DNA of 36,523 nucleotides from a virus (IMGVR_UViG_3300006332_000010:1-36523); one strand, 5' to 3'; shown: positions 61-35,489, numbered from the stretch's first letter. Notes: generated from the sequence alone by a model not told the origin. Numbers and translations are program-made.

Positions 61-92
61 TAGAACATGCGTTCTATAGAACATACGTTCTA
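61..92. promoter_or_regulatory. Tandem pair of LexA-like operator boxes (left end)
   Basis: Two adjacent 16-bp units, TAGAACATGCGTTCTA (61-76) and TAGAACATACGTTCTA (77-92), differ at one base. Each contains GAAC-N4-GTTC, the layout of the LexA box in Gram-positive bacteria, Actinobacteria and green non-sulfur bacteria. The same pair occurs in reverse orientation at 35457-35489. It lies 100-135 bp upstream of the predicted late promoter. It could bind host LexA or a phage regulator; no lexA-like gene is visible in the window. Confidence 0.6.
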
Positions 93-138
93 AATTGGAG
101 GGTACAGGTGAACGGCGTCAGGCCACACCGCATGATAA

Positions 139-199
139 GGAGGGACGATCAGCGACGAGTACTCGTAAGCCAGTCTATCTTGCCAGCCAAGGACTTGAC
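139..199. repeat. Left copy of imperfect 61-bp terminal direct repeat
   Basis: This segment matches 36463-36523 at 53 of 61 positions with no gaps, and all eight differences are transitions. The right copy runs to the last base of the window. The repeat ends in the -35 element of the late promoter (TTGAC). It is consistent with terminal redundancy, a circular map or attachment-like sites. Identical assembly overlap is excluded because the copies have diverged. Confidence 0.75.
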
Positions 200-223
200 A
201 TGGTTGCTATTGCACCTGATACT
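195..223 (+). promoter_or_regulatory. Putative late promoter ahead of terminase genes
   Basis: TTGACA (195-200) is followed after 17 bp by GATACT (218-223), a sigma70-type arrangement with a weak -10. The expected transcription start is about 230, at or next to the ATG at 231. The first late message may therefore be leaderless. No Shine-Dalgarno sequence precedes that ATG. Confidence 0.45.
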
Positions 224-230
224 GTTTCCT

Positions 231-704
231 ATGGACACAGAAATACAGACGCTAGTAGACCAGTTAGACCCAGAACGTGACTATGGGGAGTTTAGCTACC
301 ATGAGATAGTAGACGGTTGCCTAGATGGGCGATTTGTTATTAAGGCAGGGGACCCTGTACCTATTCTAAGAAACAAAGGTAAGTCAATGAAGGGGACAGG
401 GCGGACGTTGGAATTAGCGAAACCCAGGGAGCGTAAACATTTTGTAACACGATTTGAAGAATACGCGACAAATGATTTTGAAGTAGCGTATAATTCACTT
501 ATGGATTTGGTAAAGAAGCGTGACGTTAAGGCTGTCATGTACTTTATGGATCGAGTAATGGGTAAGCCTAGAGAAACGAGAGATGTAGCGAGTTCAGAGA
601 TGATGGCTACATTCATTGCATCTTTAGCAGGTACTCGAATGGCCCAAGTAGAGCAGCCAGAGCCGAAAGTGATTATTGATGCAACGGACTACCGAGAGGC
701 CTGA
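231..704 (+). CDS. Putative terminase small subunit
   Basis: This 157-aa protein probably recognises packaging-site DNA and loads the large terminase subunit. The assignment rests on position directly upstream of the large terminase gene and on a C-terminal region with a run of residues DVKAVMYFMDRVMGKPRE, a pattern seen near the end of many phage small-terminase-like proteins. An earlier in-frame GTG at 108 follows a GGAGGG, but it would make the gene overlap the repeat and the promoter, so the ATG at 231 is preferred. Its 3' end overlaps the next gene by 26 bp. No catalytic motif is expected. The fold cannot be confirmed from sequence reading alone. Confidence 0.55.
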   Translation: MDTEIQTLVDQLDPERDYGEFSYHEIVDGCLDGRFVIKAGDPVPILRNKGKSMKGTGRTLELAKPRERKHFVTRFEEYATNDFEVAYNSLMDLVKKRDVKAVMYFMDRVMGKPRETRDVASSEMMATFIASLAGTRMAQVEQPEPKVIIDATDYREA

Positions 705-915
705 TGGTATAGAAGGTATCGAACTAACGATACGGAAGTTACGTGCTGCGTTAGTCAAGACCCAATCGTGGGCAGAGGAACTGGAAATGGATGAATTTTT
801 GGACTCACCGTTTGCTAGTTTGAGTAACGAAGCGAAGATTGCGTTTTGGGTAGGGCACGTACAGGGTATAGAAAATGCCCTTGTTATATTAGAAGAAGCT
901 GCTGATGGTTCTTGA
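679..915 (+). CDS. Small hypothetical protein between terminase subunits
   Basis: This 78-aa acidic protein is predicted to be mostly helical, with a segment around TIRKLRAALVKTQSWAEELE and a second helix near FWVGHVQGIENALVILEEA. ATG 679 is chosen over an adjacent TTG at 676. It overlaps both the small-terminase gene and the large-terminase gene (11 bp), so it is translationally coupled to packaging genes. I do not recognise the family. A helper of terminase or head assembly is plausible from location only. Confidence 0.6.
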   Translation: MQRTTERPDGIEGIELTIRKLRAALVKTQSWAEELEMDEFLDSPFASLSNEAKIAFWVGHVQGIENALVILEEAADGS

Positions 916-2272
916 ATATCCTAGACCGTTAGTTTGGGATTGGTTAAAGGACTTTGGAACTGAGGGGTATCAACCTTTTCCCTGGCAAGCTGAACACATA
1001 CATTCACGTTCTGAGAATAGGATCATAGCTGCATGTGGTCGTCGTTCAGGCAAATCTACAGCTATTGTAGCTGAAGCATGGCGTGAATTGACACAACCGC
1101 CTGACGTTGTAGCAGGTGTAGAGCATCAACCATTGGTCTATATTATTGCTCCTAACTACGAATTGACTATGCGTGTATGGGAACCATTTGTAAAATCCTG
1201 TATATCAGACCCTACAAGCAGTAATGCGCCTATCTTGTCTGAATTAGTGTCTTACTATAATAAAGAACGACGTTTAATTGAATTGAAAACAGGTGCACGC
1301 ATACAGGCTAAGTCTGCTGATAACGAAGTATCATTACAGGGAGACAGAGTAACAGCAGCAATTATAGACGAAGCGCACGATGTCGCTGATAGTGCACGGA
1401 ACGAGTTCATGCCAGCGTTGACAGACGCTAAGGGTCGTCTCATTGCGATTGGCGTACCACAAAGCAATAACTGGTTTAGGTCTTATTGGGAACGTGGACA
1501 ATCTGACCTCCAAGAAGATAACGACTATTATTCATTTTCTGTGCCTACTACTGCTAATCCAACTATTGATGCAAGCGTTGTCGAAGAAGCACGACTGGAA
1601 TATCCAGAGATTGAGTTTCGCCAACGATTTTTAGCTGAATGGGCCGAATCAGAAGGTAAAGTTTTCAAAAATGTCGATGACTGTTTCAATGGAAAACTCC
1701 AATCATGGCAAAAAGGTAAACACTATTTAATGGGTTTGGATGTAGCGAAGCAACACGACTATACAGTGGCGTATGTTATCGATATTAAAGACATGTCAAT
1801 AGTGGCATCTGACAGATTCAATGGGCTGTCATATACAGCTTTGGGGCCTCGTATTGCTAGTCTGTACCAAGAGTACAAGTGCCAGACAATACACTTAGAT
1901 GCGACTGGGGTGGGTGAAGCTGTCAAGGATATTTTGGTGGACGAAGGGTGTCATATAACAAATTTCAAATTCACTACTCAATCCAAAGCACAATTAGTTT
2001 CAACACTAGTTGCAGAAGTTGAGCATGGACGTGTACACTTCCCTTATGACGACGAACAGTTGAAACGAGAGTTAAAATTGTTTGAAGGTAAAGTAATGGC
2101 AGGGGGTAATATTCAGTACTCCGCCCCTCCAGGATACTTCGATGACTGCGTTATGGCAGCAGGTCTTTCTGTGCTGCTTGCAAAACAACGCCAACCACGT
2201 AAAATAACTAGTAATAAGTATTTAACATTTAATAATAAAAACAAACGTAGATTTTTAACAGGTGTTGCATGA
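905..2272 (+). CDS. terL: Terminase large subunit (ATPase-nuclease)
   Basis: This 455-aa packaging motor pumps DNA into the prohead and cuts concatemers. The ATPase domain shows a Walker A loop, GRRSGKST (about 45-52), and a Walker B segment ending IIDEAHD with D155/E156. The C-terminal RNase H-like nuclease domain has acidic residues at D279 (GLDVAKQHD), D332 (IHLDATGVG) and D413/D414 (YFDDCVMAA). Length and domain order fit the family. The start overlaps the previous gene by 11 bp and the stop overlaps the portal start as ATGA. Confidence 0.95.
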   Translation: MVLEYPRPLVWDWLKDFGTEGYQPFPWQAEHIHSRSENRIIAACGRRSGKSTAIVAEAWRELTQPPDVVAGVEHQPLVYIIAPNYELTMRVWEPFVKSCISDPTSSNAPILSELVSYYNKERRLIELKTGARIQAKSADNEVSLQGDRVTAAIIDEAHDVADSARNEFMPALTDAKGRLIAIGVPQSNNWFRSYWERGQSDLQEDNDYYSFSVPTTANPTIDASVVEEARLEYPEIEFRQRFLAEWAESEGKVFKNVDDCFNGKLQSWQKGKHYLMGLDVAKQHDYTVAYVIDIKDMSIVASDRFNGLSYTALGPRIASLYQEYKCQTIHLDATGVGEAVKDILVDEGCHITNFKFTTQSKAQLVSTLVAEVEHGRVHFPYDDEQLKRELKLFEGKVMAGGNIQYSAPPGYFDDCVMAAGLSVLLAKQRQPRKITSNKYLTFNNKNKRRFLTGVA

Positions 2273-4095
2273 ACCCAGATCAGGCATACAGACGATTTGA
2301 ATATCTAAGGTCCAATGTTTATGGAAACCTTCTCAACGAATTTCAACTAGACGAAGAACTTATCAATGGAAACTTTGCTCGTTCTATCATTCCTGACGAA
2401 TGGGTAGACGAAGGATTAGACCCTACAGTACCTCCAACAGCATATAACGCAGTAACTAATGCAGCAGACCATATACTTGCTGCACCACGTAACTATGTAC
2501 CTATACGTCCAGTCAAAGATTCTACTGAAGCTGCACGTGAACATGCAGAAAACCAAAGAAGATTCCATGATATGTGGTGGTCACGTGTGCATGAGGATCA
2601 AGGTGCGCCATTAGAACGTGCGAAGAAAAAACTTGTACGTGGGAAAATGGTACTGAAGAAAACTGTAAAGTTTGATTTACTTCCTGACATGCCAGAAAAT
2701 CCTACATCTGAGGATAAAAGAAAGTTCAGCAGGGCATTACGGCGAATTGCACGTTCAAAATTTCTATGGAATTTAGATGTATGTCCTCCAGAAAATGTCT
2801 TTGAAGATCCAGTAAATCCCTGGGACCCAGAATATGTGTACGAAGAATACGAAATATTTGCCAGCGAGGTAGTCAAGCGATACCCAAATCTTATGGATCA
2901 ATATGGGCATGGTGATCCTATGAGTAAATTACCTTATGTGGAAATGTGGAGTAAGCCATATAAAGACGATCCTGGCAGCTATATGGTATGGATTGATGGC
3001 TCAATAGTTCACGAAGCAGATAATCCCTATTCATGGGAAACACGATTTTCAGAAGAAGATAACCCAGACTATGATGGATATGTGCCTTTTGTCATAGTAG
3101 ATCCTGGTTTTGGTGAAGTAGACGGTGACAATAAGCCTGAAGATAGGTATGCCTCTATACTAAAGCCTATACGTTCTGTACTGACATCTGAGGCACGTTT
3201 CCTTACAGAAATGGAAGCATGGCTGCGTATGTATGTATTCCCAGCCTTAGTTACAGTCAATATGGATGAACTAGAAGATGGTGAAAAAGAAATACGTTTA
3301 GGTCCTGGTTCACATATTAACATACGCCCTGACCAAAGTTTAGACTTATTGCGTTGGGGTGAAGCTCCAGTGACGCTAATGCAAGGTTTGCAGCGTGTAA
3401 ACAGCTACGCAGATGAAGCGTCTAAGTTTGGTGCACTTGGTGGTACGCCTCAAGTAGGTGTAGACAGTGCAACAGAGGCAGATTCACTGATAAGAAATGC
3501 AGCAACGAAACTTGCTGGTCCTATTTCTGCCATGCAACGTGCTTGTCAAAAAATAAACTCATGGGTCTTGATGGATATAGAACATATCTTTTCAACGGAG
3601 GTAACTCTTTATGGATCTTTTACGCATACTCCAAGCGAAACAACTTTACGTCCGTCAGATATTGATGGTTACTATTACACGAATGTAACGTTTGAAACTA
3701 CAGACGAAAATATGGTCAATGCACGTAAGGCTAGACTATGGGCTGATCTATACAGAATTATGCCAGGTCTATCTGAACGAACTGCAATGGATAAGATGGG
3801 TATTGATGAACCGACTACTGAACAAGATGAACGTTCTGTTGAAGATATGATGCGTTCTCCACCAATGCAACAGGCACAAATGCTTATGGCATTAGCTGGT
3901 TTAGGTGAAGTTGGTGATCTTGTACGCACAGCATTTGAACAGCAATTAGTTGGGCAAGAAATGCAGCAGCCACGTAGGATGGGTGATGAACAGGCATTGA
4001 CTACAGTCGATCAACTTGGCGATCCTACTGAGCCAGTAGTAACTGAAGCTAGACTGAACGCACAAGTAGATCAAGCACAAAGGCAGTTTCAATAA
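2269..4095 (+). CDS. Portal protein
   Basis: This 608-aa protein is the probable dodecameric portal at the capsid vertex, through which DNA enters and leaves. Support is its place directly after the large terminase with ATGA coupling, its size (typical for podovirus portals), and a body rich in aromatic and acidic residues. The start region reads NAVTNAADHILAAPRNYVPI, typical of the wing/stem entry region of portals. The tail is glutamine- and methionine-rich (about 540-608), as in many portal C-termini. The stop overlaps the next start as TAATG. Confidence 0.85.
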   Translation: MNPDQAYRRFEYLRSNVYGNLLNEFQLDEELINGNFARSIIPDEWVDEGLDPTVPPTAYNAVTNAADHILAAPRNYVPIRPVKDSTEAAREHAENQRRFHDMWWSRVHEDQGAPLERAKKKLVRGKMVLKKTVKFDLLPDMPENPTSEDKRKFSRALRRIARSKFLWNLDVCPPENVFEDPVNPWDPEYVYEEYEIFASEVVKRYPNLMDQYGHGDPMSKLPYVEMWSKPYKDDPGSYMVWIDGSIVHEADNPYSWETRFSEEDNPDYDGYVPFVIVDPGFGEVDGDNKPEDRYASILKPIRSVLTSEARFLTEMEAWLRMYVFPALVTVNMDELEDGEKEIRLGPGSHINIRPDQSLDLLRWGEAPVTLMQGLQRVNSYADEASKFGALGGTPQVGVDSATEADSLIRNAATKLAGPISAMQRACQKINSWVLMDIEHIFSTEVTLYGSFTHTPSETTLRPSDIDGYYYTNVTFETTDENMVNARKARLWADLYRIMPGLSERTAMDKMGIDEPTTEQDERSVEDMMRSPPMQQAQMLMALAGLGEVGDLVRTAFEQQLVGQEMQQPRRMGDEQALTTVDQLGDPTEPVVTEARLNAQVDQAQRQFQ

Positions 4096-4352
4096 TGGCA
4101 GGTGAACTTAGCGAAAGACTTATACGAAGATCTGCAAGAGTTGCAGCACGTCAAACTATGCTTATTCGTTCTGTGAATCAACGTTTTGGCAGCGATACAC
4201 ATTCACCTCAACGAGACAAAACATTGACACAAATAGCACTGGATTACGATTCTTTGCCATTCGCACTGGATAGATCTAGATGGTCGCCGTTTACTAATTC
4301 AACCTCTCAAGTTGTCAGTGGCATTGTGCAGAATATGAAAGGGAATAACTGA
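4095..4352 (+). CDS. Small hypothetical protein downstream of portal
   Basis: This 85-aa basic protein has an arginine-rich N-terminus (LSERLIRRSARVAARQ) likely to form a helix. It is linked by TAATG to the portal gene and by TGATG to the next gene, so the three are probably translated together. No domain is recognised. A small head or ejection-protein partner is possible from its position. Confidence 0.65.
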   Translation: MAGELSERLIRRSARVAARQTMLIRSVNQRFGSDTHSPQRDKTLTQIALDYDSLPFALDRSRWSPFTNSTSQVVSGIVQNMKGNN

Positions 4353-7057
4353 TGACCAGCCCAATAAGCCAACAAGATATGAACAAAATTATTGAGGCAC
4401 TCGAAGCCACTATTTTACGAGCATGGAACAAAAGTGCGATAAATGATCTGCCTTTTGATGAAGCAGAAGATGATCTAAACTTTTGGTTAGCAATAAAATT
4501 AAAAGATGAGCTTGACGATGATAAGGAATTTTTGTTACAGAATTATAATTCTTACAAAAACAATACTGAGCTTATAAAGAGCTTAGTACCAAATCACGTA
4601 AATAGTTATGTGAATGATTTGATTGGATATACAGAAGCGGAAAAAGAGGATAAGGATGACCGTGACGAAAAACTAGTAAAAAATGCTCCATCAAATGATG
4701 AAGACTATATTTTCACAGTAAAAAATAATAGAAAAAGAGCTAGTGATGCTTTAGCGAAGTTAGGAGTTGATGTCAAATCGATAGACGAAATGGCAGATGT
4801 CATTGCTGCTGAAAATCTACAATCAGGGCCTGATCAACTTAATTCTGTAACTGGCTTCAGAACTAAGGGAGAAATAAAATCCAGTCTAAATTTGAATGAT
4901 TTTGACATTGTTACAACTTCTGCAATTCCTAGATATAGTACACTTGGTAAATTTTTAGGATATGAAATCCGCGCAACAGCTACTATTTTTAGTGATAAAA
5001 ACCGTGTTGATTCTGATCCTCCTGAGCAAGAGATATATAAGTTTCTAGAATATACTGAAGGTGACATTGAAAATGGTGAGGAACAACCAGGCTCTTATCA
5101 AATAAAAGGATCAACTGATACACAATATGAAAATGCTGGCCTTGAGTCAGCGCAATTCGCTGATGTTTGGTATTACTCAGATGGTCAAACATCACCATTA
5201 TCTGTGAAAATAGGAGCTGGTGGAGAAGCAGGTGCTACTTACACAATTTTAGAAGGTGATTCAAAAGGACAAGTAATTACCAAAGACGTTTTGGAACGAA
5301 ATAGAGCGAATTTCGGACCTCCAGTAGCTGCTGCTTCAGTAGCTGCTGATCCTAACACAGTTGAAATAAAACAAGATGCAAATGGTAATTGGTATAGTTA
5401 TGTCTATAATCCACAAGGTAAACTCGTCGGAGACCCACAAGTTTTGCTTGATGAAGAGGGAGACCCTATTGTCTCATTTGCACAAGCTCAACAAAAAGCA
5501 CTAGAACAATACCGAAAAGACACAATAAATCAAGCTGAAGAGCAATTTGAAAAGACACATGAATTAGATCTTGAGAAGTTTGAGTTAGATAAAGTTTTAG
5601 GTTTTCAAGCACAGGCTTTAGATGAAGCTCAATTCAATGTTGATCAACTTCAATTCAATGCAAACATAGCAGAAAACGCTAGGCAGTTTGATGAAGCAAA
5701 TAGATTAAGAGCTTTTGCACAACAAGAGCAGGCTAGAGCTACAAATATTCAAGCAGGTTTCCAAATCAATCAGGCACGTTCTGAGGCATTGGATCAAGTT
5801 CGAGATGTGTTACGTAACCCTGCAGATTACCTTGCTAGAGGATTTGCATTAGCTGGACAAGAATCTCCATTCACCCCTGTTACACAAGCTGACTTGATCA
5901 ATCAGGTAACAAGCGAATATGACGCATATAAAGATTTCTTAGGTAGTTTGGGTGCAGGGTTCAATGCTGAAGAATTTTTAGCTGGTGGACAAAAAACAGG
6001 TGGCCCTCTAAACGTAGTAAATCCAGATGATTTTTACGATGATGGCGGTAATGGCGGTGGAGGCGGTAACAACCAGCAAGCAAACAAGAATTCTCTTTTG
6101 ATGCAACGTGCTGAACAGATTTCAAAAGGCTTAGAACCTGCTGGTGGTATTACGGCAGCGGATATCGAGTTTTTCTCGAAGTCTGGTTTTGTCGCACCAG
6201 GTATGCCAGGTGAAAGTCAAAATGTAAATACAGGATTTGTAGCTGATTTTCTAGGTAACAATCCGTTGTATATGACGAATAAAGATCTATACACTACTGG
6301 AGGTGCAGAATCTTTTATTCCAGGTGGTGTTTATGACAGCTCTGATATCCGTACTTCAGGAACGGCAGGAAAAATAACTAAAGATAATCCTTTAAGTCAA
6401 AGTGAACTGGATGCCTTAGCAAATTTGTCTGAAGCTAATATACAAACAGGGTTTGGCGGTGGTTTGACTGCTGAACAAATTGCAGCGTTTAGAAAAACAG
6501 GTCAGGTTCCTGCTGCTGAACACGGTGGTATGTTTGGTAATCCTGTCATTGTTGGGGATTCTTCAAGGAATAAAGAAAACCAAGAATTAGTAATGAGTGC
6601 TAATGGTGCTCCAATGGTTGTACTACCTCTAACAGACCAACAAGTAAAAATATTAGAAGGCAAGCGCAATAATAATATGCCTAAAGCTCAAACTGGGGGT
6701 ATGTTTGGCTTTGATGACTTTGTAGGTTTTGGTAATAGGGTAGGTAATATAGGCTTCGGTGGAACTATGTATAACCAATTACCTAGTAGAACTATAACGC
6801 AAAGGGACATTATTGAAAGGGCAGAACGCTTTGGTACTCCTAGAGTTTCTAATGTAGCTCAAGGCAGGATGCCAATGCCAATGCAATTTGGATTCCCATT
6901 GATGACCCCAGGGCAACTAAACACCCTAACTGGCGATGAAAGAGAAGAATTACGTACACGATTGGCTTCTAGAAATGTATCATTAGGAGATGTCGAAACT
7001 GCGGTCATGCAGCGATTTGGACCTACAGGAGTTCGACGAGGACGTAGGCGGTTCTAA
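4352..7057 (+). CDS. Large virion protein with tape-measure-like C-terminal motifs
   Basis: This 901-aa protein is a probable internal or ejected virion protein. An acidic N-terminal part is followed by a long glutamine/alanine-rich helical region (about 370-500) likely to form coiled coils. A glycine-rich linker with GGNGGGGGNN follows near 570. The C-terminal third has two GGMFG motifs (about 725 and 782). The first is followed by NPVIVGDSS and a glutamate-containing ENQELVMS stretch, resembling the GG...P..VGD...E.EL pattern near the C-termini of some tail tape-measure proteins. There is no transmembrane block typical of a siphovirus tape measure. It lies between portal and scaffold, coupled by TGATG and TAATG. 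Role is inferred from position and composition. Confidence 0.55.
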   Translation: MTSPISQQDMNKIIEALEATILRAWNKSAINDLPFDEAEDDLNFWLAIKLKDELDDDKEFLLQNYNSYKNNTELIKSLVPNHVNSYVNDLIGYTEAEKEDKDDRDEKLVKNAPSNDEDYIFTVKNNRKRASDALAKLGVDVKSIDEMADVIAAENLQSGPDQLNSVTGFRTKGEIKSSLNLNDFDIVTTSAIPRYSTLGKFLGYEIRATATIFSDKNRVDSDPPEQEIYKFLEYTEGDIENGEEQPGSYQIKGSTDTQYENAGLESAQFADVWYYSDGQTSPLSVKIGAGGEAGATYTILEGDSKGQVITKDVLERNRANFGPPVAAASVAADPNTVEIKQDANGNWYSYVYNPQGKLVGDPQVLLDEEGDPIVSFAQAQQKALEQYRKDTINQAEEQFEKTHELDLEKFELDKVLGFQAQALDEAQFNVDQLQFNANIAENARQFDEANRLRAFAQQEQARATNIQAGFQINQARSEALDQVRDVLRNPADYLARGFALAGQESPFTPVTQADLINQVTSEYDAYKDFLGSLGAGFNAEEFLAGGQKTGGPLNVVNPDDFYDDGGNGGGGGNNQQANKNSLLMQRAEQISKGLEPAGGITAADIEFFSKSGFVAPGMPGESQNVNTGFVADFLGNNPLYMTNKDLYTTGGAESFIPGGVYDSSDIRTSGTAGKITKDNPLSQSELDALANLSEANIQTGFGGGLTAEQIAAFRKTGQVPAAEHGGMFGNPVIVGDSSRNKENQELVMSANGAPMVVLPLTDQQVKILEGKRNNNMPKAQTGGMFGFDDFVGFGNRVGNIGFGGTMYNQLPSRTITQRDIIERAERFGTPRVSNVAQGRMPMPMQFGFPLMTPGQLNTLTGDEREELRTRLASRNVSLGDVETAVMQRFGPTGVRRGRRRF

Positions 7058-10000
7058 TGCCCCATGCACCAGGACATAATCAACAAACAATCGACGCATA
7101 TTTAGCATCACGTGGTATTGCACCAGGCTTTGCAAATGTTTTGCCTGATCAATCATTAGCACCAACAAGTTTACCTAGTCCACAAACTCCACCCACACGT
7201 CCAACGATAGCAGAACTTTTGGCTAGATACGTTCCTGATGAAGAAACTGCACCGCAACAAATACAAGTGGATCAGCCAGAGCCAGGTGTAATTGGTGGGG
7301 CCTTAGATGCATTGAAAGGGTTTGGTTCTGCTTTTATAAGTGGTGAATCGGCTTTGAACAAGCTCTTGACATCTAAACCAGTCAGTCTTGCTTCCTCATC
7401 AATACAAGATGTTAAATCAAATATTGGCGCAGTCATTGATCCTAGACAGGCAAACATACTTGATCTTCCTGGACAAGCAAGAGATCCTGAAGCGTTAGAA
7501 AGAATAACTGCGGAACGACGAGAGGCTACACTGCCATTTGGTGAAGCACCAGGTACTGCTATAAGAAGTGGCATTGAGGGTGCAGTTGAAGATTTAACAG
7601 GAAGTGAAAGAGCTGGTAAATACGCTGGGTTTGGGTTCGATGTAGCAGCAGCACCATCTTCATTTGTTTTTGCTGCTGGTCCATCAGCAATGGGTTTCAA
7701 GCTATTACCTAAAGCTGGAAGCGCAGTAATGAAAAACCCTATAATGAAAAATTTTGTAAACAAAACTGGCTCATTGCCTACGCAAAAAATAACAAGTTCA
7801 AAACCTGTAGGAGCAGGTGGCACTGTAATTAAAAAAGCTGGTCAATTAGTAAGAACAGTGACTGATCCTGTACTGGGAGGCGGTAATGTTGCTCAAAGGT
7901 ACGCTGCTGAAACTATTGTAGGAACTGCTGCTGAAGCAGGGTTCGAGGAAGGTGGTATTGGTGGTGGTTTATTAGGTGCTTTGGGAAGTGTAGCTCTTTT
8001 ATCTAGGGGACGTACTGGCAATATACCTGGTGCACCACAAGCCGTTAAACAAGCTGTTAGAAAAGGTACGCAGAAAATTGTAGGAAAACCTGCTTCTACT
8101 GGAACAGCTCCTGCTGCTGCACGTAGAGCAGATGAAATCATTGCTGACCCAGAAGCAGCAGCGAAACAAGCAGAAATTGAAGCTGCTGATGTTTGGTCGC
8201 CTGCACGTGAGGGTGAAATCCCACCAATTCGTGCTAGTGGTTCGACAGTTGCTCCTATCCGTCGCCCTGCACAAGCTGCAAGTGAACATAAGAATTTCAA
8301 ACGTGTTCTTAAAAAAGAAATTCAATCTTCTTTTAGGGTAGTGCGTACACAGGTAGATCAAATAAATGAGGTTTTGAAAAAATTTACTTCAACAGATGCA
8401 GACGGATATGAAAAGGTTATTGTCAAGAATCCTGACGGTACAAGCGAAGAAGAATACTTAGGAAATGTCGTTGAATTTTTTGATGATCCTAAATATACGG
8501 TTGAATCATTAGGTGAGCCTATTTATAACGCTGTTAAAAAAATGCACGATTTACTTGATGATGCTAAGAAAATACTTGATGAACACGGTATTGATTTTAC
8601 TGGCGGTAATCCTGCTCCATTGACAGGGTTTCAAAGATTTTTCCCTAGAAGAATTAAAGACTTTAATCGAAAGGCTATTGAAACTGAATACGTAGAAGAT
8701 TCGGAGTCTGCTCAAGAGATCATTAAGAAAATAGAAGCTGAAGATGAAGGGGCAGATATAAGGGCTGTTTTTGCTAATATCCCAGGTGGTGGTCCAAAAT
8801 TTGATGGTGATATAGCTAAAAGTGAAGTGCATGAAAGGGTTTTTGATACCTTCCAAGAAGGTCTTGAAAGTTCAAAAGAACTCATAGAAGGAGGAAAACG
8901 TAGTGCTTGGATATATGATAGTCCTACTGGCTCGCTATTACGTTTTATAAAAGAAGCATTTGACGATCTTGAAGTTGCAGAAACGACAAGAAACTTTATG
9001 GAGTACGGTCGTATACCTACTGAAAAGTTACCACAATTAATAAAAGAAACAAAAATTCCAAAACAGGTGTTGGATAATTTAGATGACGATGTAAAGGCTA
9101 AGTATGAAAATCTCGTATTTCATACTGACGCTGCTAAAATAATAAAAGAAATGTTTCCAGATGGACCAGGAAATATACAGAAAACAGTGGATCGATTCGC
9201 AGGGAAATGGATCAAAAAGTTCAGAGACTTTAACAAAAATGTTAGGCCAATATTGTCTACGCTGGACTTCAGTGGTCCGTTAGTGACACTTGGAACCGCT
9301 GCTTTGAATCCACAATACAGCATGAGAATGTTTGCAAAAGATTTTACTAAAAAAATAGGTGATACGTTTATAGGTAAAAGGTTTGTTGATGCTTTTTTCA
9401 ATGATCCTGAGACACGTAGGGTTGGTCGATATGCGTCAATGATTGACCCATATGATGCTGATCAATTAAAAGAGTTTCTTGTTTCAGCTAAAGGAAACAA
9501 AGTACGACGTACGTTAGGTAAAGCTACTATGCCTTTCAATCGTAACTTTGCAATGATGGGGAACAGGCTGCGAAGAGACATGTTCAATATTATTGAAAGA
9601 AGTTATAAACAAGATGTCATCAACGATATGGTAGACAAAGGTATTCCGCTTAAGGATATAGATGTAGATTCTATAATGACTGAAGAGGCTTTGATCAGTA
9701 TTGGAAAATCAGTAGACAGGTTCACTGGTATAGGTACTGGTAAAGTTGCTACCGTTGAAGATTTGTCACTTTTTGCCCCTAACTTCTACAGATCAATAAT
9801 TGAAACTATAGGCAAGAATTTTGAAGCAGGAACGTTAGAAGGCGACTTGGCAAGAGCGCACATGCAAACTGTAGTTTCGTCTGGTTTATATTTAGTAACA
9901 GCCGTTGCTTTATCGCAAGGCCGTGACGTCTCAGAAGTTCTTTCTCCTATTGACGGCGATCAACTTTACTACAATGATCGTTTAGTTGCGAACCCTAATT

Positions 10001-11557: not shown

Positions 11558-11668
11558 ATGAACTTGCTAAAAACTTTATTGACTATAAAATATAGTAAAG
11601 CCCTCCCACCAGAACATATGTTCTACAGGCAGGGTGTAGTAACTCGCAGTAATGCCAGTTGGAGATAA
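11558..11668 (+). CDS. Possible 36-aa protein before scaffold gene
   Basis: An ATG 5 nt after the preceding stop opens a 36-codon frame with a hydrophobic start (MNLLKTLLTIKYSKAL) and a C-terminus ending VVTRSNASWR. It stops 4 nt before the scaffold ATG, so it would fill the gap between two genes. There is no clear Shine-Dalgarno, so translation would depend on coupling to the upstream stop. The frame runs through the palindrome at 11611-11624. Low confidence. Confidence 0.35.
   Translation: MNLLKTLLTIKYSKALPPEHMFYRQGVVTRSNASWR
11611..11624. promoter_or_regulatory. Isolated perfect LexA-like palindrome
   Basis: AGAACATATGTTCT is a perfect 14-bp palindrome of the same GAAC-N4-GTTC type as the paired boxes at both ends. 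A weak promoter-like pair lies upstream (TTGCTA 11564-11569, 16 bp, TAAAAT 11586-11591), overlapping a small inverted repeat (ACTATA/TATAGT, 11582-11596). It could control the scaffold/capsid genes. The caveat is that a possible short coding frame crosses it, so it may be coincidental codon content. Confidence 0.35.
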
Positions 11669-27700: not shown

Positions 27701-27757
27701 AGTTACTTTCTCTATCTGCCCTAATGTTTGAATCAACTGTTGCACAAGTGTACGCAA

Positions 27758-27896
27758 ACGTTGACTTAGTTTTCAGTATACCTCAAAAACCTAATGCTGA
27801 CGTAGGGGGTTGACAAGTGTGTTACGCTTAAAAAGCGAAGCGACAAGCCTTAAGCATTTGAAGCAAGCGTCAGGGGACGCTGTATTCTAAATATCA
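27758..27896. other. Intergenic stretch with small hairpins, no gene seen
   Basis: No coding frame of note is found here. It holds a perfect 6-bp hairpin AGCGTC-AGGG-GACGCT (27866-27881), an inner CGCTT/AAGCG hairpin (27825-27837), and a GCTTAA/TTAAGC pair that could enclose it. A TATACT reads leftward (27775-27780) without a good -35. It probably carries a control element or processing site between the RepA-like gene and its downstream genes. Confidence 0.4.
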
Positions 27897-30004: not shown

Positions 30005-31109
30005 CTCCAAATTTCCCTTCTTCTAACCCCCAGGTATCATACCCCTCCCTATTTTCCCTGGAAAAAATATCTATTCGTGGCTCTGGGCTTACCCTTCGGA
30101 CCACATCGTAAAACTCTTCTGGCTTTCTGCTATGTTCCCTTCTTTCTGCTTCAAAACAAGTGAAGAAATTTTTTGTTTCAAGGAATGGTTGTGCTCCTTT
30201 TCTTGCCAGTAAAACAAATTCACAATTAAATTGCGGTAATCCTACTGGCTGGAATCCTCCTTTCTTATGCCACACAAATGTTGAAAGATATGTAAAGTCC
30301 CACGCATCTAATATTTCAAAACTAGATCGAAGATATTTCTGTGTAGTCCATAGCCATAGATGACATTCATCATGTGCTGGTAGTTTGAAGTCTTTGATTT
30401 CATCTACCGTCATCGTTGCGTAATCAAAGTTTTGTTTGTCAAACGTTCTGTTTTCTAGTTGTATCCTGTCTATATCCCAGGGTGGATCAATGACAATGGT
30501 TCGGTACTGCCCTTCAGGTGGCTTTATGGCTAACGCTTCTCTACGTAACTTTTCTTTTTGAGCTTTTAGAACCTCCTTTTTTTCCAAACGAATCTTTGTT
30601 GCCATCCTCAGAATTTCATCTTCACCTATAATCTCTCGGTTAACTTGCTGTAAGGTCTTTTGTCCGCTTTTCATTTCTTCAAACAGTTCTGGTGTATTTT
30701 CCTTTATTCTTTTAGCTAACTTAATGTATGCTGGTGATACTTGTAACATTGCACCAGCTTCACTCTGAGATAGATAGCTAATATTAGCTATCTTCGACCT
30801 TGCATGTACTCCTTGACTCAAAGTAGCAATCTCTGCACCAAGAGCTGCACGCTGCGATGCAGTGAGGTGTCGTCGGTGCAAGTTAGAAGAAAGAACAAAG
30901 GCTAATGGATTTTCACCCTGGTATTGGGTCCATTCTGGTTGCACGTCTACTTCCATACACGCTAAGTATCTGTTACGCCCATCTAATATCTCGTCGCCTA
31001 GTAATACTATTGGATTTTGCAATCCGTTTTCTTTTATGTCGTCACACAAAAAAGTAAAGTCTGTACCTTCAATGAGTGGAAATAGATCTGCATATGGATG
31101 AAACTTCAA
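29988..31109 (-). CDS. ParB-like/MT-A70 N6-adenine DNA methyltransferase fusion
   Basis: This 373-aa protein combines a ParB/Srx-like N-terminal domain (ILDGRNRYLA at 41-50; helical LTASQRAALGAEIA and SQSEAGAMLQVSPAYIK region to about 160) with a C-terminal MT-A70 methyltransferase carrying DPPW (208-211) and HLWLWTTQKYL. It should methylate adenine at N6 using S-adenosylmethionine, with the N-terminus helping target DNA. Start is TTG 31109 with AAGGAG 6-7 nt upstream. No cognate restriction nuclease is seen. It lies 20 nt downstream of a folded RNA element. Confidence 0.85.
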   Translation of the reverse strand: MKFHPYADLFPLIEGTDFTFLCDDIKENGLQNPIVLLGDEILDGRNRYLACMEVDVQPEWTQYQGENPLAFVLSSNLHRRHLTASQRAALGAEIATLSQGVHARSKIANISYLSQSEAGAMLQVSPAYIKLAKRIKENTPELFEEMKSGQKTLQQVNREIIGEDEILRMATKIRLEKKEVLKAQKEKLRREALAIKPPEGQYRTIVIDPPWDIDRIQLENRTFDKQNFDYATMTVDEIKDFKLPAHDECHLWLWTTQKYLRSSFEILDAWDFTYLSTFVWHKKGGFQPVGLPQFNCEFVLLARKGAQPFLETKNFFTCFEAERREHSRKPEEFYDVVRRVSPEPRIDIFSRENREGYDTWGLEEGKFGDDKTT

Positions 31110-31128
31110 TGAACGCTCCTTCGGTATG

Positions 31129-31195
31129 GCCCCTTGACCCTGTCACTCCCCAGTTATAGAACCGCTGTCGGTTGCAGTTCTCAGAGTCAAGGGGC
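31129..31195 (-). ncRNA. Structured 67-nt RNA element before the methyltransferase start
   Basis: On the minus strand, 31195-31182 and 31142-31129 form a 14-bp stem, all paired with one G-U pair; on the plus strand the same place is a C-A mismatch, so the minus strand is the functional one. Inside it, 31181-31158 forms an 8-bp hairpin with an 8-nt loop (AACCGACA), followed by a 15-nt single-stranded run (31157-31143, AUAACUGGGGAGUGA). It begins 11 nt after the upstream stop and ends about 7 nt before the AAGGAG of the TTG-started methyltransferase gene. No U-tract follows, so it is not a standard terminator. It may be a riboswitch-like or processing element. Confidence 0.65.
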
Positions 31196-31205
31196 TTCTG
31201 AATAA

Positions 31206-31628
31206 TTACCCTACAATAGCTTGTGATCGCCAGACGTTATGGTTACTGCCTGTTCCATTGTCGTCTTTAGAGCAGTAGTATTTTGCTGGTACTTGTTGAC
31301 CATCTATGTTGTCATATTCTTGCCACTTGGGTAGTGTTTCCTTTAGCTGAATCCCCTCATGTTCTGGGCAGTAAAGTGTAACGCCTTGTTGGTCGGCAAA
31401 ACTTTGCTTTTCTTCTGGTGATGCTGTTGGTCTCGACTCCTGTGCTGGTCTAGCGGACCCTGTACTACCACCCATTGGTGGTGCTGTACCAAACAGCCCT
31501 TCCATTTGATCTATGTGCGATACGATTAGTTCTAAATCTGTTACAAGGGGTCGCCACTCGATTAAATGGTTACGGTACATCCTTTGTACTTTGACCTCCC
31601 ATAATTTTTCTTGTGATTCATCAGTCAT
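31206..31628 (-). CDS. Hypothetical protein with C-terminal Cys/His motif
   Basis: This 140-aa protein has a helical N-terminal part, a Pro/Ser-rich linker (about 55-75) and a C-terminal segment with YCPEHEGI and KYYCSKDDNG, a possible zinc site. AGGAGG precedes its ATG. It is upstream of the structured RNA and methyltransferase. Function unknown. Confidence 0.6.
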   Translation of the reverse strand: MTDESQEKLWEVKVQRMYRNHLIEWRPLVTDLELIVSHIDQMEGLFGTAPPMGGSTGSARPAQESRPTASPEEKQSFADQQGVTLYCPEHEGIQLKETLPKWQEYDNIDGQQVPAKYYCSKDDNGTGSNHNVWRSQAIVG

Positions 31629-31678
31629 TTTAAATCCTCCTATTATTGCTTCATTTATTAATGCTGATTTGCCAGGTA

Positions 31679-32035
31679 TTAATTTACCGTTGCTAGGTTT
31701 GCTAGTATCTGTAATTCTGATAGCCCTATCTTTATTCCGTCATTCAATGCTTCTATGTTGCGTGATGCATCATTCACTGAACGCCTGTGTTCAAGTGCCT
31801 CCTTAAAAAGTTCCTGATATTCTATGTTGTCATCTAACTCCAGTAGTAATTGATTGTCACGATCACTTTGATTTCTACCAGGTGTCTTTATCTTGGCTCG
31901 GATAAGCTGACACTGATACTCACAGTGCTTAGCCATAGCCAGTTCTTCAGACAAAAATTCTTTAGACTCGTCGCGCCTAAAGATCATATCCTGAACCTGT
32001 TTGGAAACTTCATCGTGCCTACTTAGTAAGTCCAT
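31679..32035 (-). CDS. Coiled-coil hypothetical protein
   Basis: This 118-aa protein is predicted almost wholly helical, with charged heptad-like runs throughout (SKEFLSEELAMAKHCEYQCQ, LFKEALEHRRSVNDASRNIE). GAGGAC in the end of the upstream gene precedes its ATG. No domain recognised. It may bridge replication proteins or be a nucleotide-binding partner, but there is no evidence for this. Confidence 0.55.
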   Translation of the reverse strand: MDLLSRHDEVSKQVQDMIFRRDESKEFLSEELAMAKHCEYQCQLIRAKIKTPGRNQSDRDNQLLLELDDNIEYQELFKEALEHRRSVNDASRNIEALNDGIKIGLSELQILANLATVN

Positions 32036-32037
32036 GA

Positions 32038-32307
32038 TTAGTCCTCAATAAGTATCAGGTTGTGTGGTTCCCTGTTCACTGAAATAAAACCTTCAGTTAC
32101 TTCAAACCTAATCCTCCCAAAGGATCTATTAACACCAGTAATCTTTACACGTGTGCGTAATTCAAGTTGCTTTTGTTTACCGTCTTGACCTTTGGGTAAG
32201 GTTCCATGTTTGATTAGATGACTATGATTAGCCCCAATGCTGTATGCATCTTTGTTGATATATTGTGACGCTTCTTCTAACGAAGATACAGAAATCGTTT
32301 GGTCCAT
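32038..32307 (-). CDS. Hypothetical small protein, mixed alpha/beta
   Basis: This 89-aa protein has an N-terminal helix and a strand-rich second half (LELRTRVKITGVNRSFGRIR, FEVTEGFISVN). AAGGAGG precedes its ATG. It begins the transcription unit read from the promoter at 32328-32356. The family is not recognised. The basic/strand part could bind nucleic acid. Confidence 0.55.
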   Translation of the reverse strand: MDQTISVSSLEEASQYINKDAYSIGANHSHLIKHGTLPKGQDGKQKQLELRTRVKITGVNRSFGRIRFEVTEGFISVNREPHNLILIED

Positions 32308-32327
32308 ATGTTCCTCCTTGTAGGTTT

Positions 32328-32356
32328 ATTATATATGGTGTATAAGTTGTAAGCAA
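32328..32356 (-). promoter_or_regulatory. Minus-strand promoter
   Basis: Reading leftward, TTGCTT (rc of 32351-32356), 17 bp, then a perfect TATAAT (rc of 32328-32333). The first gene starts at 32307 with AAGGAGG. This should drive 32307-31206 and on into the methyltransferase. Unlike the other three it lacks the TTGACATA start. Confidence 0.65.
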
Positions 32357-32357
32357 G

Positions 32358-32621
32358 CTACTGTTTAAGTAGCTCGCTTTGTAATGTGTGGTTCAGGTCT
32401 ATGAGTTTGTATCTAAGGTCATGCAATTCTGTACTAAGTTCTTTGTTTCCCTTATACATATACTGCATTGTGTCTAGTACGAAAGTTACAGAAAGAAAAG
32501 TATTTGTTATTTCTTTTACTGTCTGTTCACTAAGTGCTACTCCCTTATGGGGTGTGTGTCCCTGTTCCTCGCACCATTCCATTGCCTGGTATAAAAATTC
32601 CTCCTGATTAGGTGCGCTCAT
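32358..32621 (-). CDS. Hypothetical small helical protein
   Basis: This 87-aa protein is acidic at the N-terminus (EEFLYQAMEWCEEQG), with a long helical C-terminal half (about 30-87). ATGA coupling to the upstream 32-aa membrane protein gene places them in one translation unit. No motif recognised. Confidence 0.55.
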   Translation of the reverse strand: MSAPNQEEFLYQAMEWCEEQGHTPHKGVALSEQTVKEITNTFLSVTFVLDTMQYMYKGNKELSTELHDLRYKLIDLNHTLQSELLKQ

Positions 32622-32716
32622 AGTATCTCCCTTTTCATTACCACTATTCCTAATATAATTCCGCAGCTAAACCCTGTAAAAAAACCTATTCCATATGCTA
32701 TCCATACTGCTTCCAT
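32618..32716 (-). CDS. 32-aa single-pass membrane protein
   Basis: GAGGAGG 7 nt before ATG 32716 opens MEAVWIAYGIGFFTGFSCGI and a further 12 residues ending VVMKREIL. It is a single hydrophobic helix with Gly-x3-Gly-type spacing and a basic end. It overlaps the next gene by ATGA. The strong ribosome-binding site and coupling make it a likely real gene. Role unknown; an inner-membrane partner, holin-like or host-takeover peptide is possible. Confidence 0.65.
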   Translation of the reverse strand: MEAVWIAYGIGFFTGFSCGIILGIVVMKREIL

Positions 32717-32729
32717 TGTCTAACCTCCT

Positions 32730-33038
32730 CTAATATTGTAACGACCAGTCTACAAGATCTATAATTACTGTCGGTTCACCCCCTCTTGAATATTGGTCTT
32801 CCATGTTTGGCGCTAAAGATATCCCTGAGCCTGTTGGAGAATTGTGGCTGCCAGTATTCTCTATCAAATAATCTAGGATTATTCTTACGGCGTACTCCTC
32901 ATCGTCTTGCCGTTTCATTACAGTTACAGTTCGCATTGCCTCACGGCTAATGTCTGGCAAAGTAAAACCGTGACTATGCGTATAGAAATATAAAGAACCA
33001 TTACTCGTCTTTACCTCAGCCATTCTTCGATCACCCAT
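32730..33038 (-). CDS. Hypothetical protein of a phage family with a YTH(W)-type N-terminus
   Basis: This 102-aa protein starts with MGDRRMAEVKTSNGSLYFYT then SHGFTLPD. The order of LYFYTH, DISREA, a DDEEYAVRIILDYLI helix and a C-terminal VIIDLVDWSLQY matches a family of short phage and plasmid proteins of unknown function. AAGGAAG precedes its ATG. It may act together with the similar 135-aa protein at 33685-34092. Confidence 0.6.
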   Translation of the reverse strand: MGDRRMAEVKTSNGSLYFYTHSHGFTLPDISREAMRTVTVMKRQDDEEYAVRIILDYLIENTGSHNSPTGSGISLAPNMEDQYSRGGEPTVIIDLVDWSLQY

Positions 33039-33053
33039 TATCTAACTTCCTTT

Positions 33054-33356
33054 CTAGCAATACTCTTGCAAATATTTTTGATATTCTTTCTCAAGTCTGA
33101 TAACTCTGTCTGAAACTTTTTCTTGATTGTTTTTTATGAATGGACTGTCTGTTACTGATATGCCGTCCCACGCTTCAGCAAACATAGAGCTGCTATCCCA
33201 TTTATAACAATCAATATCTTCATCAGAATCGCCCAAGAATTGAGAATCGCGAACAAAAATCCAATCATCATACACTCTTATTTCTTTTGGTGAATAAGAG
33301 AGTCCTCGATTCCCTAACCACACTCTCGCCATTTCTGTTGTTAATTCATTACTCAT
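33054..33356 (-). CDS. Hypothetical early-cassette protein
   Basis: This 100-aa acidic protein has a mixed fold with WLGNRGLSYSPKEIRVYDDW near the N-terminus and a C-terminal helix (about 75-95). AAAGGG precedes its ATG. It is the first full gene downstream of the strong promoter at 33408-33436. Function unknown. Confidence 0.6.
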   Translation of the reverse strand: MSNELTTEMARVWLGNRGLSYSPKEIRVYDDWIFVRDSQFLGDSDEDIDCYKWDSSSMFAEAWDGISVTDSPFIKNNQEKVSDRVIRLEKEYQKYLQEYC

Positions 33357-33407
33357 TGTCTTTTCCCTTTCAATGTAGATAGCTTTTTTACTACCTCTCT
33401 ACTGACT

Positions 33408-33436
33408 ATTATACTGTATAGTATATACTATGTCAA
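33408..33436 (-). promoter_or_regulatory. Consensus minus-strand early promoter with dyad spacer
   Basis: Leftward reading: TTGACA (rc of 33431-33436), 17 bp, TATAAT (rc of 33408-33413), a perfect sigma70 match. The spacer holds a perfect 12-bp palindrome TAGTATATACTA (33419-33430), a candidate operator. It overlaps the 3' end of the upstream gene, so it is an internal promoter serving 33356 and below. Confidence 0.8.
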
Positions 33437-33634
33437 CTGTTTATATAACTTCGATACACATTCATTGTCTATATAGAATATTAGTTTAGTGTCTGTTGTT
33501 TTGATTTCCTTTCTACTACCTGGGTTTTCACCCTGACATACTATGCACCTATTAGGTGTTTCAATTATTAACTTCTTTCTAGAGTCAATGTAGATACGGT
33601 CCTGTTTATTTATAGCAATCTGTAATGATCTCAT
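33428..33634 (-). CDS. Small hypothetical protein with C-x2-C motif
   Basis: This 68-aa basic protein has RCIVCQGENPGSRKE at about 28-42, giving one Cys pair. Its 3' end includes the -35 of the next promoter. A 14-bp CCTGTTATGGTATG repeat (33641-33654) lies at its ribosome-binding site. Role unknown. Confidence 0.5.
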   Translation of the reverse strand: MRSLQIAINKQDRIYIDSRKKLIIETPNRCIVCQGENPGSRKEIKTTDTKLIFYIDNECVSKLYKQLT

Positions 33635-33684
33635 GGTTATCCTGTTATGGTATGTCCTTTCTTATTATCAATAAGTTTTTTTAT

Positions 33685-34092
33685 TCATCCTCCTATATAT
33701 ATATCTGGTTCGTTATCCATAAAGTGCTTGTCGTTCTCTTTCCTAGTCCAGTCGTAGATCTCTTTGAATGGATATACTTGTTGTTCTTTTCTATTTTCAA
33801 ATTCTAGTCGATCAATGATGTTAAAATTTTTGTCAATTATATAAACGCCATTATCTCCACTGGCAGTACCGTTATATTCTGGTATTGTTCCGACATATGC
33901 AGTTTCTGTCATATCACTTGATAGCATGTTATGGAACATCTTATATAGATCATTCATGCCAGCATTGTCACCAGTTAAACCGTACTCTTTCGCTACTTCC
34001 AGTACTGGCTCGACTGTATCTCGTCCACCATTCCAATGTAGATAGATCGCAACGTCACTATCTACCATATTAATTACCGCTCGATTACCCAT
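33685..34092 (-). CDS. GNRAV/HWNGG-type conserved phage hypothetical
   Basis: This 135-aa protein begins MGNRAVINMVDSDVAIYLHW and continues NGGRDTVEPVLEVA, the mark of a family of phage and plasmid proteins of unknown function. Later it has GTIPEYNGTASGDNGVYII and a basic/aromatic C-terminus. AAGGAA precedes its ATG. Its neighbours are other small early genes. The function is not established. Confidence 0.7.
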   Translation of the reverse strand: MGNRAVINMVDSDVAIYLHWNGGRDTVEPVLEVAKEYGLTGDNAGMNDLYKMFHNMLSSDMTETAYVGTIPEYNGTASGDNGVYIIDKNFNIIDRLEFENRKEQQVYPFKEIYDWTRKENDKHFMDNEPDIYIGG

Positions 34093-34095
34093 TTT

Positions 34096-34467
34096 CTATT
34101 CCTTACTTTCCATTATTGCAAGTAGTTCTTTTTTCTGTTCGGTTGTCCAGTCAGTGTTAGTCCATGCAGTCATTTGGATAAGTTCCCTAAACCTTTTGGC
34201 ATTTGGAAAGTCTCTATCTACTTCTGGGAGGTATTCGTTTTTGTGCCACTCCTCCCATTCCCTGTCATCCCAGTCATCGTCCCAGTCATCGTCGTCCTCT
34301 GGGTTATGTTCTGACCTGTATTCGTCGCGTGCTTCACTCCATGAAGCACAGCTTCCGCATGTATAGCCAGCAATTTTATTGTGTATATTAGGGTAACGAT
34401 TTACGTACCCTTGCACTGAAGTATCAATGCCACATTCTAAACACCTGTTAGTTTCGTATTCTTCCAT
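34096..34467 (-). CDS. Acidic zinc-ribbon-like hypothetical protein
   Basis: This 123-aa protein has CLECG near the N-terminus and a second CGSC pair about 27 residues later, so one zinc site is likely. A very acidic stretch with DDDDWDDDWDDREWEE follows (about 58-73). The acid-rich part could mimic DNA or bind basic host proteins, as in some phage inhibitors; this is an inference. AGGAGGG precedes its ATG. Confidence 0.6.
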   Translation of the reverse strand: MEEYETNRCLECGIDTSVQGYVNRYPNIHNKIAGYTCGSCASWSEARDEYRSEHNPEDDDDWDDDWDDREWEEWHKNEYLPEVDRDFPNAKRFRELIQMTAWTNTDWTTEQKKELLAIMESKE

Positions 34468-34488
34468 TAAAGCCCTCCTAACCTCTCT

Positions 34489-34767
34489 TTAATCCCAAAC
34501 TGATCGCACTGCGATAGTTTCACAGATTCCTTTATGTTCGAAACTAAGCGATCCGCCGTCGTTTCCTTCGTCGTCTTGCATCGAATACAGTAACGCACCG
34601 TTATCTAACTGCAAAACTAATGGTCTCTTTTCCCATCCTAAACCGTGTGCTTCTTCCTTACTTAGAAACCTTACAGATTTGATTTTTCTTCCTGCTAATT
34701 TTATCGTCAATTCGTTTTCGCGTGAGGCTAGATATTTATTAAGTTTTTCTACTTCGCTTTTACTCAT
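34489..34767 (-). CDS. Hypothetical early-cassette protein
   Basis: This 92-aa protein has a helical N-terminus and a strand-rich second half (RPLVLQLDNGALLYSMQDDE, SLSFEHKGICETIAVRSVWD). AAAGGAG precedes its ATG. No family recognised. Confidence 0.6.
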   Translation of the reverse strand: MSKSEVEKLNKYLASRENELTIKLAGRKIKSVRFLSKEEAHGLGWEKRPLVLQLDNGALLYSMQDDEGNDGGSLSFEHKGICETIAVRSVWD

Positions 34768-34782
34768 TTTCTATTCTCCTTT

Positions 34783-35031
34783 CTACTTGATGTGTATAAT
34801 TTCAATGTGATCATTCAAAAAGTTTTGTTCCCTATCGAATGGTTCAAGGTTTGTAAATTCCCAGTCTGTTTCGATAGGTTGTGCACCATATGGAAATGCT
34901 GTATCACATGCCTCAGAAATATCTATACCAGTTAAAAGATTACCCTGTTCATCAAACACTTCTGGGTAATCATTGGTGTCAATGATCTCTTCATAAACCT
35001 GTAGTGACGTGGCCCTTATTTTATATTTCAT
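34783..35031 (-). CDS. Hypothetical early-cassette protein
   Basis: This 82-aa acidic protein starts MKYKIRATSLQVYEEIID. It has a strand, a loop with EVFDEQGNLLTGID, and a helical/acidic C-terminus. ATGA links it to the upstream gene. Function unknown. Confidence 0.55.
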   Translation of the reverse strand: MKYKIRATSLQVYEEIIDTNDYPEVFDEQGNLLTGIDISEACDTAFPYGAQPIETDWEFTNLEPFDREQNFLNDHIEIIHIK

Positions 35032-35267
35032 ATACGAAACCCTACCCCCTCAATAATGTCCCTGACTCTCTCGCGATCTACACTATCGATACAATGTACA
35101 CTACTGGCCCAAGTATCATAAGTGTTTTTATATTCGGCTACTGCTTTTATTATTCGGTCCCTTGTGAGTCCATCTATTACGTACAACCCGTTATTTCTTT
35201 TAGGGTCATAGCACTGAAACATATAGTCTATAAAAGCTTCGAGCTCTATACGTTCTTCTAAATCCAT
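35028..35267 (-). CDS. Hypothetical early-cassette protein
   Basis: This 79-aa acidic helical protein starts MDLEERIELEAFIDYMFQCY. AAAGGAAAG precedes its ATG. It is the first gene read from the promoter at 35309-35337. Function unknown. Confidence 0.55.
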   Translation of the reverse strand: MDLEERIELEAFIDYMFQCYDPKRNNGLYVIDGLTRDRIIKAVAEYKNTYDTWASSVHCIDSVDRERVRDIIEGVGFRI

Positions 35268-35308
35268 TGTCTTTCCTTTCTAGGTAACTGCTTGCTACCT
35301 ATATCTAT

Positions 35309-35337
35309 ACGATACCTTATACGGTATAGTATGTCAA
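35309..35337 (-). promoter_or_regulatory. Minus-strand early promoter
   Basis: Leftward: TTGACA (rc of 35332-35337), 17 bp, TATCGT (rc of 35309-35314). The spacer has dyad-like ATACCGTAT character. It should drive the small-gene cassette from 35267 downwards. It shares TTGACATACTA with the promoter at 36212-36240. Confidence 0.65.
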
Positions 35338-35360
35338 TAGTATTAAAGTATTTTGTTTGT

Positions 35361-35395
35361 CCTGTTGTGGTATGTTGTCACCCTGTTGCGGTATG
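35361..35395. repeat. Pair of 14-bp iteron-like repeats
   Basis: CCTGTTGTGGTATG (35361-35374) and CCTGTTGCGGTATG (35382-35395) are 13/14 identical and spaced exactly 21 bp apart, two helical turns. This fits a protein-binding array such as an origin or operator. Related single copies CCTGTTATGGTATG occur at 29972-29985 and 33641-33654. Confidence 0.5.
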
Positions 35396-35416
35396 TTTTT
35401 GTTTCCTGATCATGGC

Positions 35417-35431
35417 TTCCGCCTGGCGGAA
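35417..35431. promoter_or_regulatory. 15-bp palindrome upstream of a plus-strand promoter
   Basis: TTCCGCCTGGCGGAA is a perfect palindrome with a central T, GC-rich in an AT-rich region. It lies 9 bp before the TTGACA at 35441. It may be an operator or a DNA cruciform-type site. It is unlike the GAAC-type boxes nearby. Confidence 0.5.
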
Positions 35432-35440
35432 CTGTCTTAC

Positions 35441-35469
35441 TTGACATAACATTATTAGAACCGTATGTT
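35441..35469 (+). promoter_or_regulatory. Plus-strand promoter embedded in LexA-like boxes
   Basis: TTGACA (35441-35446), 17 bp, TATGTT (35464-35469). The -10 lies inside the first GAAC box, so a bound regulator would block it. No coding frame follows, so any transcript would be non-coding and antisense to the terminator and the 35679-36182 gene. A second TTGACATAAC copy at 35492-35501 has no good -10. Confidence 0.5.
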
Positions 35470-35489
35470 CTGATTAGAACGCATGTTCT
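35457..35489. promoter_or_regulatory. Tandem pair of LexA-like operator boxes (right end)
   Basis: AGAACCGTATGTTCT (35457-35471, 5-bp spacer) and AGAACGCATGTTCT (35476-35489, 4-bp spacer). Read on the minus strand, this is the left-end pair at 61-92 with small indels: the first box is identical to TAGAACATGCGTTCTA and the second differs by one inserted base. It is therefore an inverted copy. It lies between the terminator and the cassette promoter. Confidence 0.65.

Follow-up and report, generated by a model that had tools for sequence, protein, structure and literature searches.

LexA-type boxes in an orphan tailed-phage genome match SOS promoters of its probable Dehalococcoidia host

Here we report that the record of an uncultured marine phage, 36,523 nucleotides long (IMGVR_UViG_3300006332_000010:1-36523; the whole stretch analysed, hereafter the window), carries LexA-type palindromes near both ends and in one internal gap, and that these palindromes very probably belong to a protein-binding code common to the phage and the SOS genes of its probable host. 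We consider it likely, judging from the sequences compared, that LexA of the host uses these boxes as operators and so controls phage transcription, which suggests that the phage may time its genes by the damage sensor of the host instead of by a repressor of its own.

The tandem pair of GAAC-N4-GTTC boxes predicted at the left end was confirmed by direct reading and by pattern search, and consists of two abutting 16-bp perfect AGAAC-N4-GTTCT palindromes at 61-92, with box A at 61-76 (TAGAACATGCGTTCTA) directly adjoined by box B at 77-92 (TAGAACATACGTTCTA). Self-BLAST recovered the inverted pair at the right end at 35457-35490 (61-93 against 35490-35455, 91.7% over 36 bp, E 6e-4), with the correction that its outer box at 35458-35470 (GAACCGTATGTTC) is imperfect, reading GAAC-CGTAT-GTTC and so following GAAC-N5-GTTC with a 5-bp spacer. 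The other member of this pair, at 35475-35490, is in reverse complement identical letter for letter to 61-76, so that one box is indeed shared by both pairs as had been claimed, and the single box at 11611-11624 (AGAACATATGTTCT) also proved to be a perfect palindrome; none of the boxes was assigned a strand. The centres of the two boxes are 16 bp apart in the left pair and 18.5 bp apart in the right. The pattern GAACN4GTTC occurs four times in the window against 0.56 expected, a count reached in none of 100 shuffles, and AGAACN4GTTCT likewise four times against 0.04 expected, with none of 200 dinucleotide shuffles reaching that number. All four exact boxes are intergenic, in a window with an intergenic share of only ~6%, and their four central bases differ from box to box with the half-sites held constant, as for a protein site.

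Named relatives of the phage are so remote that the host is unreadable from them: TerL identity is ~31% or less, best to a haloarchaeal phage and Thermus phages, BLASTN of window positions 1-2000 against named phages gave no match, and the Pelagibacter phages HTVC111P, HTVC112P, HTVC202P and HTVC026P are distant kin whose likeness lies in the major capsid protein (~30% identical). Searches with TerL returned seven close viral contigs (82-97%) and, from 84,980 bacterial and archaeal genomes, a single match of 96% on contig L022 of the MAG ‘Dehalococcoidia bacterium ALOHA_A2.0_7’ (G009) from Station ALOHA. The same MAG holds a second contig of this phage, C40, whose identity is 88-97% for the most part and 78% in one stretch; no further close TerL turned up in a search of 400 genomes from the phylum. 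The most likely host on this evidence would be a marine member of the Dehalococcoidia, a class within the Chloroflexota that includes the SAR202 cluster, to which we infer that G009 belongs; since binning can err and only one MAG is involved, the assignment is a lead and not a proof. Short matches of window positions 34264-34299 in two more genomes were rejected as CRISPR spacers, the stretch being acidic low-complexity coding sequence.

In the Dehalococcoidia order, 39 of 44 genomes have a lexA that scores above the family cut-off; G009 itself is without a full lexA. A box of the GAAC-N4-GTNC type is present in most lexA promoters of the order, where it typically stands as one conserved copy, usually CAGAACATATGTGCCG or a near form; the box in the G010 lexA promoter is TAGAACATATGTTTTA. 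The lexA promoter of G034 has twin boxes, AGAACTATTGTTCT and AGAACATACGTTCT, behind TTGACG, and the second of these equals the 14-mer of window box B. Across the order, AGAACATNNGTTCT occurs in 27 of the 44 genomes against one match for the reversed control pattern; genes adjoining boxes of this type encode RecA, an IMS-family polymerase, DnaB, L9, ribonucleotide reductase and LexA, and some matches lie inside genes. A dyad search with no preset motif identified GAAC-N4-GTTC as the one dyad common to all eight recA upstream regions examined, five of which have TAGA...TCTA flanks, including that of G009 (ttgacttaGAACGTCTGTTCtattaatg). The original prediction had named host LexA as a possible shared regulator, and the finding of the same box type before lexA, recA, imuB and dnaB in the probable host lineage supports it as the likely binder. 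At L071, L072, L092-L094 and L082, LexA-type boxes stand before dnaB or rplI and before a ribonucleotide reductase, which makes the SOS regulon of this order an unusual one. A twin palindrome in G039 (L128) was rejected as a LexA box because it looks like a terminator hairpin, and perfect palindromes can therefore be something other than LexA sites.

The phage boxes were compared with the host boxes by means of a matrix built from 24 host boxes, 17 of them from lexA and 7 further SOS boxes, a test that is partly non-blind because these 7 had been found with a phage-like pattern. With this matrix the window's four boxes rank 1-4 in 36.5 kb (24.5, 21.7, 19.0 and 19.0, the next site scoring 14.0), and the boxes of related contigs rank 1-3 in L022, 1-2 in G002 and 1-3 in G004. 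At a score of at least 18 there are 11 sites in the window, L022, G002 and G004 together, every one of them intergenic, against 0.02-0.07 per contig in shuffles. Under a stricter matrix made from lexA boxes only, with G034 left out, the window's two best sites are those at 11610 and 77, in that order, the N5 box comes fourth, the GC-centred boxes at 61 and 35475 fall outside the top seven, and the relatives' boxes take ranks 1-3 in L022, 1-2 in G002 and 1, 2 and 4 in G004. The L022 boxes read GAAC-N4-GTGC in reverse complement, which is the commonest form in host lexA promoters, so that variation in the phage falls at the same position as in the host. A matrix scan of HTVC111P found no LexA-type cluster.

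Rightward genes of the window comprise a terminase small subunit candidate recognised by position (231-704, plus strand), TerL (905-2272, plus strand; phrog_2, E 3e-37), portal-like and very long virion proteins, capsid and amidase; leftward genes encode a RuvC-like resolvase, a RecB/Cas4-like exonuclease, an HNH protein, an AAA_25 ATPase and a ParB-like/MT-A70 fusion. The expectation that no phage repressor gene would be visible was borne out: Pfam and PHROGs scans recognised no repressor, integrase or HTH family in the ORFs scanned, many of them small and with no assigned function, and the LexA DNA-binding domain PF01726 was absent from all six frames of six phage records at E values up to 1.

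Promoter candidates, which are sigma70-like and scored over 12 consensus positions, place the boxes differently from the original prediction. The right pair, claimed to lie ahead of the early leftward genes, spans the -10 and start region of a rightward candidate at 35441-35469 (plus strand; TTGACA-N17-TATGTT, 10/12; -10 within the box pair), the only sigma70-like promoter that overlaps it, and the leftward early candidate at 35309-35337 (minus strand; TTGACA-N17-TATCGT) begins ~120 bp away, so that the promoter scan lends no support to direct LexA control of the leftward operon. The left pair, claimed to lie ahead of the late rightward genes, overlaps no promoter and ends 102 bp short of the late candidate at 195-223 (plus strand; TTGACA-N17-GATACT, 10/12), at a site that is variable among relatives; the 11611 box also overlaps no promoter. 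Of the two-way switch once proposed, a shared regulator is supported, with host LexA as its likely identity, and the early/late division as proposed is not. A transcript from 35441-35469 is predicted to run antisense to the leftward gene 35679-36182, which has an intrinsic terminator candidate at 35549-35576 (minus strand), and on towards terS. The terS start codon lies only 6-9 bases past the presumed -10, as if the late mRNA were leaderless (window 217-231; L006 2610-2627; L008 8825-8842; L022 near 4720).

If host LexA is the binder, it would occupy the phage boxes in an undamaged cell and hold phage transcription down, and DNA damage would lead to LexA self-cleavage and release of the boxes. 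In the simplest model LexA would stop the rightward transcript at its start, over the right pair, and LexA at the left pair may obstruct the same transcript again before terS or may instead act on the late promoter. Such SOS-timed expression would amount either to lysogeny without a repressor of the phage's own or to postponed lysis.

The last 61 bp of the record (36463-36523, plus strand) are an 87% copy of 139-199, which indicates that the contig probably runs once round the genome and ends in a strain variant, its two ends not being simply adjacent. The ends of the close relative G002 overlap likewise on a larger scale (1-713 against 38543-39247, 81%), and both contigs appear to represent one round of a circular or permuted genome with a strain-variant end. 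Head-to-tail joining of the ends, on which an estimate of ~1.1 kb between the box pairs had been based, is accordingly replaced by end overlap, which brings the distance to ~0.93 kb. The right-end copy of the region upstream of terS is without the left box pair, and the left pair is for that reason probably polymorphic in the population. The identity of only 81% in the G002 overlap points to a hypervariable region upstream of terS. The repeated element itself (139-199, plus strand; GGGACGATCAGCGAC...CTCGTAAGCC) lies upstream of the late promoter and may be a DNA packaging (cos/pac) site. A similar element, rich in G and with TCAGCGA as its core, in most cases together with CTCGTAAGCC, stands before terS in relatives down to 82% TerL identity (L006 2530-2600; L007 9140-9190; L008 8780-8830; L009 1140-1185; L011 9335-9375; L022 4633-4693).

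Among close relatives, in which the box pairs were expected to recur if functional, the picture is mixed: positions shift, but L022, G002 and G004 each keep two or three such boxes in intergenic gaps. L022 has three boxes at the place of the left pair, beside the terminase-proximal element; in G004 a rightward gene for a 227-aa protein of unknown function comes after the boxes; in G003 no box in an intergenic gap exceeded the threshold, and a search for relatives through the early genes added one more contig, without boxes. Relatives share a short hairpin between two late genes (CCCTCCCATTCGGCAGGG in G002); between the corresponding genes of the window, this hairpin has the 11611 box inserted in its loop. 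The flank of that box, CCACCAG-ACATATGTTCTA, reappears at the third box of L022. Taken with the varying boxes ahead of terS, the insertion shows rapid gain and loss of boxes, a pattern that is usual for regulatory sites and would also fit mobile palindromes or a sponge for LexA.

The last of these readings holds that the boxes titrate host LexA, many phage copies derepressing recA, dnaB and ribonucleotide reductase to the benefit of replication. That the boxes at 61-92 and 11611 overlap no promoter, that the palindromes are closer to perfect in the phage than in most host lexA boxes, that two to four boxes persist as positions drift and that host dnaB and ribonucleotide reductase carry boxes would all suit it; we nevertheless regard it as unlikely, as the right pair does overlap a promoter and is laid out like a LexA-repressed one, the sites per genome are few and a literature search found no paper on such a LexA sponge. 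A broader scenario, in which a tailed-phage lineage of uncultured marine Dehalococcoidia, lacking a repressor, continually gains and loses host-LexA palindromes in its gaps, with either host SOS alone timing lysis or phage DNA soaking up LexA and so inducing recA, dnaB and ribonucleotide reductase, is offered tentatively as a minority possibility.

Equally improbable as titration, in our judgement, is that the boxes serve an unrecognised phage repressor or activator whose palindrome resembles that of LexA by coincidence; most early genes are of unknown function and palindromes of this kind suit many HTH proteins, but the domain scans found no HTH family in the ORFs scanned and no LexA domain in six phage records, and the same sequence is found again in host SOS promoters. 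Small mobile palindromes or RNA hairpins with no regulatory role are less probable still: they would account for the 11611 insertion in a conserved hairpin and for the flank shared with L022, but would not predict the match to host SOS promoters or central bases that vary between fixed half-sites. Least credible are packaging (cosB-like) repeats bound by the small terminase. The tandem 16-bp repeats do lie 46 bp from the candidate packaging element, where L022 has three boxes, but boxes also occur at 11611 and 35457-35490, and TerS-binding repeats were rejected on the evidence of G002, in which TerS is 98% identical and the element is present but the left-pair place has no boxes.

Direct control of a phage promoter by host LexA occurs in CTX phi and, at tum, in coliphage 186; both also use a phage repressor, with a gammaproteobacterial LexA motif, and as phage types they differ from that of the window. 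A closer parallel to the preferred reading of the boxes as host LexA operators is the Bacillus thuringiensis phage GIL01, in which host LexA acts on promoters P1 and P3 (PMC4551915, PMC6182141). The two share the lack of a recognised dedicated phage repressor, boxes of GAAC/GTTC type and a host LexA, predicted in our case, in the repressor's place; in addition, the right pair within its rightward promoter candidate resembles in layout both the G034 lexA promoter and the late promoter P3 of GIL01, whose LexA boxes stand in tandem beyond the -35 (PMC6182141). GIL01, however, is of tectivirus type, infects a Firmicute, has been proven to bind LexA and possesses an accessory protein, gp7, and a LexA-like activator, gp6 (PMC4551915, PMC6182141), whereas the window's phage encodes a terminase, is of tailed type, has a probable Chloroflexota host and LexA binding predicted from sequence, yielded no LexA homologue in six phage records, and has its left pair 102 bp before the late promoter instead of on it. 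Since no LexA-like activator was found and promoter placement matched only in part, we do not class it as GIL01-type. Phages controlled by CtrA, for which ‘lytic deferment’ has been described, also concentrate sites for a host regulator in non-coding regions and do not need lysogeny genes (PMC9437464); the resemblance lies in the placement of such sites in non-coding gaps, while the regulator and hosts differ, and binding was shown there and is predicted here. A literature search of incomplete coverage returned nothing on a LexA motif or on phage gene control in Dehalococcoidia/SAR202.

Beyond binning, the boxes link an orphan phage lineage to a host by a shared regulatory code. If the preferred reading is true, lysis in an ocean clade of high abundance would be timed by DNA damage, and the small group of phages that rely on host LexA for their switch would gain a tailed member. 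The motif is also a direct, testable handle for other viral contigs. It cannot name a host by itself, since twin GAAC-N4-GTTC boxes occur in unrelated viral contigs: 16 stretches with twin boxes turned up when all viral contigs were scanned, and a related terminase accompanied none of them. In L113 (10933-10975), which is unrelated, twin LexA-type boxes are followed by an exact TTCTAGTTGACATAACA, as at 35475-35502 of the window, and another unrelated viral contig, L012 (9950-9981; G008), has TAGAACATACGTTCTATAGAACATACGTACTA, almost the window's left pair. The viral contigs L101 (~7030-7120) and L106 (~8630-8720) contain arrays of about five evenly spaced LexA-type boxes, and in L106 there is, besides, a gene for a 37% relative of the AAA_25 ATPase encoded in the window.
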